IMG/VR virus record: IMGVR_UViG_3300032083_001839
Coordinates: 1-35,456 of that record
Origin: a virus
Strand: one strand, 5' to 3'
DNA: 35,456 nt
The translations under genes and the position numbers were made by a program. The notes under the pieces are model-generated. The model was not told the DNA's origin. It ran no database searches and was given only the letters and a program-made list of their open reading frames with translations. Shown here one piece after another: positions 16,196-31,644 of this stretch (position 1 is its first letter; each line of letters begins with the position of its first letter).

Positions 16196-16203
16196 AAAGA
16201 AAG

Positions 16204-16233
16204 GGGGACCTAATTCAAAGGTCTCCTTTTTTT
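16204..16233 (+). terminator. Intrinsic terminator
   Basis: GGGGACC (16204-16210) pairs with GGTCTCC (16220-16226), with one G-T wobble, followed by seven Ts that run into the next late promoter box. Confidence 0.85.
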
Positions 16234-16240
16234 ATAAATA
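16233..16240 (+). promoter_or_regulatory. T4-type late promoter
   Basis: TATAAATA begins at the last T of the terminator's T-run and lies 35 nt before ATG 16275. This is an exact match to the T4 late box. Confidence 0.75.
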
Positions 16241-23015: not shown

Positions 23016-23023
23016 TATAAATA
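23016..23023 (+). promoter_or_regulatory. T4-type late promoter
   Basis: TATAAATA directly follows a T-run, 28 nt before ATG 23052. Exact late box match. Confidence 0.7.
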
Positions 23024-23051: not shown

Positions 23052-24467
23052 ATGCAGCCCTCTAATCAATTAAAAGGACTAGTTGAGTCATATAATTCGG
23101 TATATGCCAACAGACAAGAACTCGAAGAAGCAAAGGTAGTTGCCGAGAGTGTCATCAACTCTGTAGGCGTATATATGGTTGAACAGGGCTATACTGAGTC
23201 CGATGTATCAGATTTCTTTAAGACTTCATCAATCGCTAAAATTGATGATGTATTTGAAGAGTCACTTCATTCACAAACAGTTTATTCCCATCTAAACGAG
23301 TCACTTCTATTTGAAACTCATCTAAGATATATTCCTGGTGCCATGGCAACCAGAATGAAAAATGAGTCTCCTGAGCTTGTGAATCAACTTTCTCAACAGA
23401 TTGTTGAGTTCATTAAGCTCCAAGGCGGAAAGACTGGAGAGAAAGCTGGTCGAGGGATTCGTAGATTTGTTGGCGGCGCCGCCAAAGACGCTATTAATTT
23501 AGGCAAAGGTGCCGTTGATGTTGCTGGAGCAGGGCTTCAAGGTCTTGCTGGTCAGAAAACCACTTCTAAGAATCCTCTTGCAAGAGCACAAAATGCTCTT
23601 GGTAGAGGCGTCACCGCCCCTGCTAGAACTACCGCTGGTTTTCTTGGTGGTGTTGCTCGCGGTTTAATGGGTAGTGGATCAAAATCCAAGTCAAAACCTG
23701 CTGTTAAAACTGGCTCTGATACTAAAGCTCAAGGCAGCGGATCCTCAGATAGTGGTTCCTCAGGTAGTGGTAGTGGTTCCTCAGGTGGATCATCCAGACC
23801 TGCAGTTGCAGCAAAACCTGCAAAACCTGCACTTTCTGCGAAAGATACTGCAAGCAACGCTAAGTATGCCAGTTTAAGAAAGTCTGATCCTGCTGCTGCT
23901 AAGAAGTTTGGTATGGCTGCATCCAAGGCAAAGTTTGGATCTAACAAGCCCAAAACTACTAATCCTTTGATGTCTTCTCCTGCATCAAAAGCACCTTCTG
24001 GAAGATCTGCAATCAAGTCAAGTCGTTTGAGTGCTGCATTGGATGGAGTTAAGAAGGTCAAGAAGGAGTCCAGTGAACTAGACCTAGTTCTTCAGCACCT
24101 CGTCTCTGAGGGCATCGCAGACTCCCTACAAGGCGCTCTAGTCATGGTTGAGGGAATGAGTGATGAATTCATCAACAGCATCATTGAGCAGGCTCAGATG
24201 GGTTCTGCGATGGTTGAATTCCTAATCCAGAACGGTGAGGCTGAAACCATTGAGGAAGCACAATACATCATCTCCCAGTTAGACGAAGAGAACATTGATC
24301 TTCTTATTCAGAGTATTACTGAAGGTCCAGCACTACAGAATACAATCAAAACTCTTGAAACCAAGAGAGATACGATGGACAAAATGAGACCTGGAAGTTC
24401 TAACAGTGGCAAGGGTCAGTCTGTTGGCGCTGCTCTGTATAAGGCATATCAGAGAGGAAAAGTCTGA
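23052..24467 (+). CDS. Large cyanophage virion-associated protein with low-complexity linker
   Basis: A 471-residue protein. Residues 1-115 are helical (QPSNQLKGLVESYNSVYANR). Residues 130-215 are rich in Gly, Ala and basic residues (RGIRRFVGGAAKDA). Near 228-250 is a Ser/Gly linker (SGSSDSGSSGSG), then an Ala/Lys region. The C-terminal part has two related helix-turn units, QHLVSEGIADSLQGALVMVE and EFLIQNGEAETIEEAQYIIS, each followed by an acidic-isoleucine stretch; related units occur in other cyanophage structural proteins. It has its own late promoter and a terminator after it, so it is an independent late gene. A tail or capsid role is inferred, not shown. Confidence 0.6.
   Translation: MQPSNQLKGLVESYNSVYANRQELEEAKVVAESVINSVGVYMVEQGYTESDVSDFFKTSSIAKIDDVFEESLHSQTVYSHLNESLLFETHLRYIPGAMATRMKNESPELVNQLSQQIVEFIKLQGGKTGEKAGRGIRRFVGGAAKDAINLGKGAVDVAGAGLQGLAGQKTTSKNPLARAQNALGRGVTAPARTTAGFLGGVARGLMGSGSKSKSKPAVKTGSDTKAQGSGSSDSGSSGSGSGSSGGSSRPAVAAKPAKPALSAKDTASNAKYASLRKSDPAAAKKFGMAASKAKFGSNKPKTTNPLMSSPASKAPSGRSAIKSSRLSAALDGVKKVKKESSELDLVLQHLVSEGIADSLQGALVMVEGMSDEFINSIIEQAQMGSAMVEFLIQNGEAETIEEAQYIISQLDEENIDLLIQSITEGPALQNTIKTLETKRDTMDKMRPGSSNSGKGQSVGAALYKAYQRGKV
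23751..23786 (+). repeat. 15-bp direct repeat coding the Ser/Gly linker
   Basis: AGTGGTTCCTCAGGT occurs at 23751-23765 and 23772-23786, 21 bp apart and in frame. It encodes SGSSG-type linker units and may vary by replication slippage. Confidence 0.8.
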
Positions 24468-24487
24468 TTCTCAATCAATTTTCTGAA

Positions 24488-24514
24488 GGGGGCCTTGACA
24501 GGTCCCCTTTTTTT
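24488..24514 (+). terminator. Intrinsic terminator with TTGACA as its loop
   Basis: GGGGGCC (24488-24494) pairs with GGTCCCC (24501-24507), one G-T wobble, closing a six-base loop that is exactly TTGACA. Seven Ts follow (24508-24514). Confidence 0.85.
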
Positions 24515-24523
24515 ATGTACAAT
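24495..24523 (+). promoter_or_regulatory. Sigma70-type early promoter with its -35 in the terminator loop
   Basis: TTGACA (24495-24500), 17 nt including the terminator 3' arm and T-run, then TACAAT (24518-24523). It lies 23 nt before ATG 24547. Confidence 0.75.
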
Positions 24524-24546
24524 TGCCTTGTTAGAGGTAAAGAGGG

Positions 24547-24711
24547 ATGAACAAAGCTAAGCTTAAAGTATTAGTAATGGCTCTCAAAGAGATCATTGAA
24601 GAACTTGAGTCTGAAGTTTATTCAGATACAGAATCATATACGGCACCAGTCGAAGGAATGGTTGGTGATTATGATGAAATATTTGATGACGATGATGGTT
24701 ATCCAGACTAA
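24547..24711 (+). CDS. Small acidic protein, 54 aa
   Basis: ATG 24547, preceded by an AGAGG site and by the 24495 promoter. It reads MNKAKLKVLVMALKEIIEEL, an amphipathic helix, then a strongly acidic tail with YDEIFDDDDGYPD. Acidic small early proteins of phages often bind host transcription or nuclease proteins, but here nothing shows a target. I recall this layout, a leucine-rich helix plus YDExFxDDDGY, from several marine T4-like phages. The gene stops 29 nt before the GIY-YIG gene. Confidence 0.7.
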   Translation: MNKAKLKVLVMALKEIIEELESEVYSDTESYTAPVEGMVGDYDEIFDDDDGYPD

Positions 24712-24740: not shown

Positions 24741-25232
24741 GTGGCAGAAAGTAAAGAATATGAGAATCCCTGGATCTATTGTGGCAGCGTCTTTGACGGG
24801 AGTCTTATTGGGGGTAACCATGGTTTTGTTTACAAGATCACCTGTAGCATCACCAATCGTTCCTACATTGGAAGAAAATACTTCTGGCAAAAACGAAAGC
24901 CTAGAAGTAGTACTAATACTGTCAAGCGGCGAAGAGTTACTAGTGAAAGTGACTGGAGAAAGTACTATGGTAGTTGTCCAGAGCTTAAAGAGGATATTAA
25001 ACAGTATGGACGGGAGTCTTTTGCTAGAGAAATCCTCTCCTTACACCTCACCCCTGGAAAAGTCAACTATGAAGAGACTCGTCAACTCTTCATCAATAAT
25101 GTCCTGACCGAGGCCCTTGACAACGGCACCCCTGCCTTCTATAATAGCAACATTCTTGGAAGGTACTACCGCAAAGATTATTTTAATTATGATAAAACGA
25201 ACTCTGGCATTGACAGCACTGACACTCACTAG
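24741..25232 (+). CDS. GIY-YIG-family endonuclease-like protein
   Basis: A 163-residue protein with a GTG start. The GIY-YIG core is GFVYKITCSITNRSYIGRK, where FVY takes the GIY place and YIG is intact, followed by an arginine. A basic insert (KRRRVTSESDW), KYYGSCPEL, the helix YGRESFAREILSL with the catalytic glutamate, and FYNSNILGRYY with the conserved asparagine complete it. It resembles a stand-alone nuclease common in T4-like marine phages rather than an intron homing enzyme, since no intron is seen here. Mobile Seg-type behaviour is possible. Its last 44 nt overlap the next gene and its 3' end holds a consensus early promoter. Confidence 0.75.
   Translation: MAESKEYENPWIYCGSVFDGSLIGGNHGFVYKITCSITNRSYIGRKYFWQKRKPRSSTNTVKRRRVTSESDWRKYYGSCPELKEDIKQYGRESFAREILSLHLTPGKVNYEETRQLFINNVLTEALDNGTPAFYNSNILGRYYRKDYFNYDKTNSGIDSTDTH
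25117..25145 (+). promoter_or_regulatory. Perfect sigma70 consensus promoter inside the GIY-YIG gene
   Basis: TTGACA (25117-25122), exactly 17 nt, TATAAT (25140-25145). It lies 43 nt before ATG 25189 and would express the lysozyme-like gene early. Confidence 0.8.
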
Positions 25233-28286: not shown

Positions 28287-28565
28287 ATGTCCGACCTAAA
28301 CTTGTCCGATTTAAAATTGGAACGTAAGGAATGCCCTAAATGTGGGGCTGTCTGGATGAACGGTCAACATTACTGGCATACAGGTGCAATGGGATCTGAT
28401 TTGGATCTTGCTGGATTAGTTTGCAACAATCATGGTGACACCAACTGTATCAATCCCCTTAAGGGTACAGAAGGTGGAGACACCTGGGCTGATCGCTTTG
28501 TGGACCTGACAAATGATTTTGCAGATCTCCATAAGAAAATGACTGACGAGTACGAAAAGGATTGA
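28287..28565 (+). CDS. Conserved small cyanophage protein with CPKC motif, 92 aa
   Basis: The protein begins MSDLNLSDLKLERKECPKCG, then AVWMNGQHYWHTG, LDLAGLVCNNHGDTNCINPL, KGTEGGDTWADRF. The CPKC and C-x6-C pairs, with nearby histidines, could hold one zinc. The GGDTW motif is strongly conserved in the family as I recall it, in P-SSM2-type cyanophages. The function is unknown. A perfect sigma70 promoter starts inside its last codons. Confidence 0.75.
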   Translation: MSDLNLSDLKLERKECPKCGAVWMNGQHYWHTGAMGSDLDLAGLVCNNHGDTNCINPLKGTEGGDTWADRFVDLTNDFADLHKKMTDEYEKD

Positions 28566-28590
28566 CATCCGTCCCTCCATCCCTTATAAT
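28562..28590 (+). promoter_or_regulatory. Perfect sigma70 consensus promoter
   Basis: TTGACA (28562-28567), exactly 17 nt, TATAAT (28585-28590), starting at the previous gene's stop codon and 22 nt before ATG 28613. Confidence 0.85.
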
Positions 28591-30520: not shown

Positions 30521-30552
30521 AAAAAGACCCTTGACAACAGGGGTCTTTTTTA
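30521..30552 (+). terminator. Intrinsic terminator before the sugar island
   Basis: AAAAAGACCC (30521-30530) pairs perfectly with GGGTCTTTTT (30541-30550), with further TTG/CAG pairing around an ACAA loop. The loop region holds the next promoter's -35. Confidence 0.85.
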
Positions 30553-30559
30553 GTATGAT
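30531..30559 (+). promoter_or_regulatory. Sigma70-type early promoter in the terminator loop
   Basis: TTGACA (30531-30536), 17 nt including the terminator 3' arm and T-run, then TATGAT (30554-30559), 26 nt before ATG 30586. Confidence 0.75.
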
Positions 30560-30585: not shown

Positions 30586-31644
30586 ATGTCCGAATATAAA
30601 AAAACAGCATTGGTCCTAGGTGCTGGTGGATTTATCGGGAGTCATATGGTAAAGCGCCTTCGAGCAGAAGGCTATTGGGTTCGTGGTGTTGATCTAAAGA
30701 GACCTGAGTATTCTGATACTGAAGCAAATGAATTCATTCAAGGTGACTTGCGCGATAGAAGTTTTGTTCGTCGTTGTATTCGTACCACTGGTGTCAATGG
30801 TGGGTTCTATGCACAGATTGTAGATAAGTTTCTCTCACCTTTTGATGAGATCTATCAGTTTGCTGCTGATATGGGTGGAGCAGGATTTGTATTCACTGGT
30901 GAAAATGATGCAGACATTATGCACAACTCAGTGTCTATCAATCTGAACGTACTTGAAGAACAACATCTTCTTAATCTGGATAAGGATGTAAACCAGACCA
31001 AAATTTTCTATTCTGGTTCTGCTTGCATGTATCCAGAGTATGCTCAAGAAGAAACAAACAATCCTGGACTGAGAGAAAATGACGCATATCCAGCCGCACC
31101 AGACTCTGAGTATGGATGGGAGAAACTCTTCAGTGAGCGTCTCTACTTTGCTTACAATCGTAACCATGGTATCCCTGTTCGGGTTGCTAGGTATCATAAT
31201 ATCTTCGGACCTGAAGGGACCTGGGACGGTGGCAGAGAAAAGGCACCAGCTGCAATCAGCCGTAAAGTCGCTTACCTCCCAGAGGTCGGTGGAGCTATCG
31301 AGGTGTGGGGAGATGGCCTACAAACTCGTTCCTTCCTGTACGTTGACGAATGCATTGAAGCAACTAGAAGACTAATGGATAGTGACTTCATGGGACCTGT
31401 GAATATTGGTTCTGAAGAGATGGTCAGTATCAATCAATTAGTTGAGATTGCTGCTAAAGTTTCTGGTAAGGTTGTTAGGAAAAAGTATAAACTGGATGCA
31501 CCTACTGGTGTTCGTGGACGCAACTCTAATAATGATCTAATTAGTGAGAAACTTGGATGGGATTATAGTCAAACTCTAGAAGAAGGTATTCGCAAAACAT
31601 ACATATGGATTCAGGAGCAAATTAATGCAGCGTCACAAGTTTAA
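30586..31644 (+). CDS. GDP-mannose 3,5-epimerase-like SDR enzyme
   Basis: A 352-residue extended short-chain dehydrogenase. The NAD-binding motif is LVLGAGGFIGSHMVKRL. The catalytic region has SGSACMYPEYAQ, and EYGWEKLFSERLY with the YxxxK pair. RYHNIFGPEGTWDGGREKAP, then AAISRKVA, and WGDGLQTRSFLYVDECIE match plant GDP-mannose 3,5-epimerase closely, including PVNIGSEEMVSIN and GVRGRNSNN. The enzyme converts GDP-D-mannose to GDP-L-galactose (and GDP-L-gulose), used in sugar polymers. It leads the glycan island from the 30531 promoter and is overlapped 20 nt by the GT10 gene. Assignment is good; the phage role is inferred. Confidence 0.85.
   Translation: MSEYKKTALVLGAGGFIGSHMVKRLRAEGYWVRGVDLKRPEYSDTEANEFIQGDLRDRSFVRRCIRTTGVNGGFYAQIVDKFLSPFDEIYQFAADMGGAGFVFTGENDADIMHNSVSINLNVLEEQHLLNLDKDVNQTKIFYSGSACMYPEYAQEETNNPGLRENDAYPAAPDSEYGWEKLFSERLYFAYNRNHGIPVRVARYHNIFGPEGTWDGGREKAPAAISRKVAYLPEVGGAIEVWGDGLQTRSFLYVDECIEATRRLMDSDFMGPVNIGSEEMVSINQLVEIAAKVSGKVVRKKYKLDAPTGVRGRNSNNDLISEKLGWDYSQTLEEGIRKTYIWIQEQINAASQV

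Follow-up and report, generated by a model that had tools for sequence, protein, structure and literature searches.

A fused terminator-promoter element at a probable operon boundary in a T4-like cyanophage

Can a transcription terminator and a promoter occupy the same bases, and what would such a unit do between two genes? The question is raised by an intergenic site in the window, by which we mean the whole 35,456-nucleotide stretch of viral DNA analysed here. The DNA comes from a T4-like cyanophage; among named phages, Synechococcus phage S-T4 (Kyanoviridae, Tamkungvirus) is the closest to it, with ~81% identity across 74% of the window's first 25 kb. The site lies between two genes of unknown function, the second of which encodes an acidic protein with homologues elsewhere (Table 1), and nrdA and nrdB are found farther upstream. 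A late-type TATAAATA box is present at 23016, 5' of the 471-aa gene; the frequency of such boxes in the window is not above chance.

A terminator hairpin with a -35 hexamer at its apex

Between the 471-aa and 54-aa genes the + strand reads GAAGGGGGCC TTGACA GGTCCCC TTTTTTT ATG TACAAT. All of the parts that a first-pass annotation had marked here, namely the two arms, the TTGACA, the T-run, the 17-nt spacer and the TACAAT, are present. The stem comprises 11 pairs, is GC-rich and includes one G-U pair (24485-24510). With a U-tract directly 3' of this stem, positions 24485-24514 have the composition of an intrinsic (Rho-independent) terminator, and the 31-nt hairpin folds with an energy of -18.1 kcal/mol, compared with -9.5 ± 2.4 kcal/mol for shuffled sequences. 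The site also has the composition of a sigma70-type promoter: its -35 and -10 hexamers lie within the 16-18 nt spacing of that class and are kept in relatives. No Rfam family matched at the site.

The annotation's central claim, that the terminator and the -35 draw on the same bases, holds, since the TTGACA lies inside the hairpin. Its description of the six-base loop as exactly the -35 is correct for the GC stem. In the folded RNA, however, the first T of TTGACA pairs with the last A, leaving a UGAC loop, and among relatives the -35 shifts relative to the apex, which is at odds with a strict identity of loop and hexamer. Taken as a whole, the earlier interpretation, which added that late read-through might be coupled to early start, is partly supported.

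Table 1. Positions of the fused elements and of the genes beside them (window coordinates, except for the last row)
Feature	Position	Strand	Detail
471-aa gene	23052-24467	+	phrog_3708; ends 18 nt before the hairpin
Terminator hairpin	24485-24510	+	5' arm 24485-24495; loop 24496-24499 (TGAC); 3' arm 24500-24510
GC arms	24488-24494; 24501-24507	+	GGGGGCC; GGTCCCC
-35 hexamer	24495-24500	+	TTGACA, 6/6, at the hairpin apex
Promoter spacer	24501-24517	+	17 nt
T7 run	24508-24514	+	terminator U-tract and part of the 17-nt spacer
-10 hexamer	24518-24523	+	TACAAT, 5/6, 17 nt past the -35
54-aa acidic protein gene	24547-24711	+	phrog_878; 3' of the element
Second fused element	30521-30559	+	hairpin AAAAAGACCCTTG-ACAA-CAGGGGTCTTTTT; TTGACA 30531-30536, 17 nt, TATGAT 30554-30559
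NAD-dependent epimerase gene	30586-31644	+	3' of the second element
Fused elements of Lactococcus phage WRP3 (NC_027341)	25658, 27766, 70580, 71997, 77246		

Other signals were observed in the window. Two perfect TTGACA-17-TATAAT promoters, at 25117-25145 and 28562-28590, stand without a terminator. The first of these sits within a gene (24741-25232) whose product is assigned as NAD synthetase by PHROGs and carries a SegE GIY-YIG endonuclease domain according to Pfam. A closely similar TTGACA-18-TATAAT is present in S-T4 and S-CAM4, a likeness that may only reflect conserved coding sequence. At 16197-16240, the T-run of a strong terminator leads straight into a T4-type late promoter box (TTTTTTTATAAATA), and terminators fused to a late promoter are also seen in relatives (S-T4 near 84038 and 97044; Sf-CH8 near 112417).

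A second copy and the chance level

The window contains a second fused element, 5' of an epimerase gene (Table 1), which a simple terminator scan with a loop limit of 8 had missed. Its stem is unrelated to that of the first, and it is also found in Sf-CH8 and in S-T4, where it again precedes the epimerase gene; S-T4 carries the first element as well. The window has four strong terminators, and two of these are of the fused type. None of 300 simulated windows, generated by an order-2 Markov model with the same trinucleotide composition, contained a fused element. The fused element in the window is not a chance occurrence.

Hairpin and -35 are conserved together upstream of phrog_878 homologues

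The regions 5' of 81 homologues of the 54-aa gene, together with that of the window, reduced to 57 distinct regions. A fused element, consisting of a hairpin, T-run and -10 with a -35-like hexamer at the tip, was found in 30. The remaining regions comprised 7 with a promoter-like match and no hairpin, 3 with a hairpin and a separate promoter, 16 with neither, and 1 that was unclear; the promoter of these genes can therefore occur alone, without the hairpin. The fused stems are diverse (GAGGAGTG/CACTCCTC, GAGCAGGG/CCCTGCTC, GAGTAGGG/CCCTACTC, GGAAGGG/CCCTTCC and GGGGTCC/GGACCCC), the tip reads TTGACA, TTTACA, TAGACA, TTGACC, TTGTTA, TTGTTG, TTGATC or TTGAAC, and the -10 follows at 16-17 nt from the -35. 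The first-pass annotation had expected pairing and -35 to be kept jointly in related phages, and this is borne out in these 30 regions; the converse pattern, a preserved hairpin whose loop varies freely, was not found among the regions upstream of phrog_878 homologues. Because the stems vary, with compensating changes in the two arms, while the tip and spacing are stable, we conclude that hairpin and -35 are conserved together wherever the hairpin is so placed.

In two of these loci, L161 and L165, an un-fused layout replaces the fused element: a terminator with a TTAACA loop and its T-run are followed by a complete separate promoter, which in L161 is TTGACA-17-TAAAAT. In five others (L170 and L191 to L194) a hairpin with a T7 run lies 3' of the promoter and ends right at the phrog_878 ATG, where it could act as an attenuator.

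The same regions bear on whether the element serves chiefly as a mobile recombination cassette, in the sense proposed for the promoter-early stem-loops discussed below, with homology for gene shuffling as its main evolutionary role. In favour of this, four loci of close relatives (L131, L132, L133 and L135) have an identity of 1.00 in the element, 0.15-0.58 in the 170 bp directly upstream and 0.91-0.99 farther up. This sharp break at the 5' edge is possibly just a variable gene end, however, and the stems of the two window copies have no sequence in common. Arms often differ between places, so the elements would offer one another little homology, and we consider such a main role unlikely.

The promoter sets the register of the hairpin

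Eight Kyanoviridae cyanophage genomes and the window yielded 204 terminators, picked regardless of promoters. A -10-like hexamer occurred at +19 to +21 from the loop centre in 33 cases, where ~4 were expected from genomic density. When the terminators were anchored on the -10, the match to TTGACA peaked at a spacer of exactly 17, with a mean of 2.93, compared with ~0.8 to 2.0 at other spacers. The same positions in terminators without a -10 gave 1.57 ± 0.16, and the maximum of 2000 resamplings was 2.15. Among a larger set of 196 terminators with a -10, selected without regard to the -35, a -35 matching at least five of six positions was found at a spacer of 17 in 47 cases, 16 in 11, 18 in 4 and 15 in 1, and at no other spacer from 8 to 25. 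A scan for ATAATT, intended as a negative control, caught the same class shifted by one base; it therefore provides a test of register and not a null. With the -10 one base closer to the T-run, the -35 shifts by one base as well. In Kyanoviridae genomes and in viral contigs alike, the -35 match is best at exactly 17 nt. Since the -35 moves with the -10 and the spacer peaks at 17, it is the promoter that sets the register, to which the hairpin is accommodated.

These data also address coincidence, in which terminators simply favour TTG-type loops and an AT-rich -10 look-alike happens to lie 3'. Loops with TTG do occur without a -10 (22/158), but they are enriched where a -10 is present (18/46), and the register is tied to the -10, at a distance of 17 nt. 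Both the spacer peak and the absence of fused elements from the simulated windows contradict this reading, which we regard as exceedingly improbable.

Of the 46 cyanophage terminators that have a -10 so spaced, 21 show a weak -35 (0-2 matches), and a strict scan of Syn9 returned no fused element; the fused design is therefore common but not universal. The genome set did not support the idea that extended -10 elements (TGn) make up for a weak -35 (p = 0.45). Many units have a repeated motif, CTGGCACA or CTGTCCAC, on their 5' side (ACG-2014f 27255, 36328 and 44782; P-SSM2 53948, 68536 and others), and in some of them it can pair with TGTGC before the -10.

Sites combining a T-run with TATAAT were also compared between bacterial chromosomes and viral contigs. 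Among 120 bacterial sites, 18 had a strong hairpin and 2 of those a good -35; the corresponding numbers for 120 viral sites were 69 and 13. On these counts the fused design is not simply a background feature of bacterial chromosomes in general, although the difference in the -35 alone is not significant (p = 0.08).

The hairpin is selected as RNA

Among 111 distinct hairpins of this class, G-U occurred in 51 and A-C in 4, although the search treated both alike. Neither a DNA palindrome nor a hairpin on the opposite strand would give an excess of G-U. On this comparative evidence, selection acts on the hairpin at the RNA level, in transcripts running in the promoter direction, as expected for a co-directional terminator of upstream transcription. 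In 22 elements sharing one register, both partners vary in 7 of 10 pairs, and double changes number 60 cells, compared with 18.8 in shuffles. As the elements were pre-selected for a hairpin, these double changes describe diversity and are not independent proof of pairing. The pair counts exclude one MAFFT alignment (A1), in which the last three rows were misplaced.

A palindrome lying across a -35 is a typical operator feature, and the inverted repeat might instead be a DNA-level signal, a repressor operator or a cruciform over the promoter, with no terminator involved. The 47 elements with a spacer of 17 have 34 distinct 3' arms, however, which is inconsistent with a common protein site. Together with a nearly invariant T-run and a tolerance of G-U but not A-C, which points to the RNA of one strand, this makes a DNA-level signal highly improbable.

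Relation to promoter-early stem-loops and to other phages

The closest known counterparts are the promoter-early stem-loops (PeSLs), composite promoter-terminator motifs of T4-type phages that were reportedly described by Arbiol et al. in 2010 and Comeau et al. in 2014. Like them, the element in the window brings together an intrinsic terminator and a sigma70-like early promoter as a single unit between genes of a T4-type phage. The geometry that we measured on RB49 is a tandem one, of hairpin, T-run and then a complete promoter. The window element lacks that order: its -35 is within the hairpin and its T-run forms part of the spacer. By geometry it would be a fused variant of the PeSL and should function like one. 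The S-PM2 cyanophage paper cites PeSLs and finds few in the S-PM2 variable region (PMC4503421). In the literature that we searched, which did not include Arbiol 2010, Comeau 2014 and one cyanophage transcriptome paper, a -35 placed within a terminator loop is nowhere described.

The two layouts are distributed unevenly. In RB49, 12 of 30 terminators have a separate complete promoter 3' and 1 is fused, whereas among the 142 terminators of nine Kyanoviridae genomes 20 are fused and 2 have a separate promoter. For the first eight of these genomes the ratio of fused to separate is 18:2, compared with 1:12 in RB49 (p = 3e-6). KVP40 (1/54) and T4 (0/12) have essentially no fused elements. Of the 18 terminators in Lactococcus phage WRP3, which is unrelated and infects a Gram-positive host, 5 are fused (Table 1) and 4 separate, and the fused form has therefore probably arisen more than once.

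Ordinary cyanophage sigma70 early promoters likewise read TTGACA-17-TATAAT. In the window element, by contrast, a terminator takes the upstream position and its 3' arm occupies the spacer. Overlap of an inverted repeat with a promoter is also seen in RB49 (TTGACAGGGGGTCACCGATCCCCTATAAT), but there the repeat is confined to the spacer, between the -35 and -10, and has no T-run. Two perfect sigma70 promoters on the minus strand of RB49, at 115005-115033 and 121708-121736, have a 17-nt spacer that forms an inverted repeat of its own (e.g. GGGGATCGGTGATCCCC), again without a T-run.

Proposed function at the operon boundary

We propose that the element is very probably a fused terminator-promoter that marks an operon boundary, at which transcription from upstream stops and a new sigma70-driven transcript begins. 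The comparisons above show its fixed geometry, its conservation, the RNA-level selection of the hairpin and its recurrence with other stems in many phages; both activities we infer from sequence. A polymerase arriving from the upstream gene would transcribe the hairpin and T-run and then be released. The host sigma70-type RNA polymerase would bind the same DNA, with the -35 at the tip, the 3' arm and T-run as the 17-nt spacer, and the -10 next. The start is predicted near 24530, ~7 nt past the -10, and the hairpin would be absent from the new transcript. As the promoter's own transcript would begin downstream, the hairpin is expected to act only on polymerase coming from upstream. In such a design the promoter would fix the hexamers and their spacing, and the terminator would require an upstream arm complementary to the arm in the spacer. 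With both signals in ~40 bp, neighbouring transcription units could be insulated from each other in a compact genome.

The fusion might do more than save space and couple the two activities, either because polymerase released at the T-run, while remaining on the DNA and able to hold sigma, reinitiates at the overlapping promoter or because promoter-bound and arriving polymerases exclude each other. The release site falls inside the spacer of the promoter, within a few base pairs of the -10, and E. coli RNA polymerase freed at termination mostly stays on the DNA and can reinitiate at nearby promoters in vitro (PMC6978380, PMC6978322), which makes recapture or mutual exclusion possible. Compactness alone, however, accounts for the overlap, and in RB49 the two signals are separate; we therefore think coupling quite unlikely. 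In its most specific form, polymerase terminated at the T-run would be recaptured by the overlapping promoter and begin the next operon without recourse to free polymerase, a relay reached independently by the Kyanoviridae and Lactococcus phage WRP3. We judge this decidedly doubtful; if true, expression would pass from unit to unit.

As a fused operon boundary, the element shows how transcription signals of opposite effect can draw on one set of bases according to a clear design rule. This rule provides a sequence signature with which operon boundaries could be annotated in cyanophages and other phages. The elements may further serve as compact insulated-promoter parts and as natural templates for asking whether terminated polymerase is reused in place.
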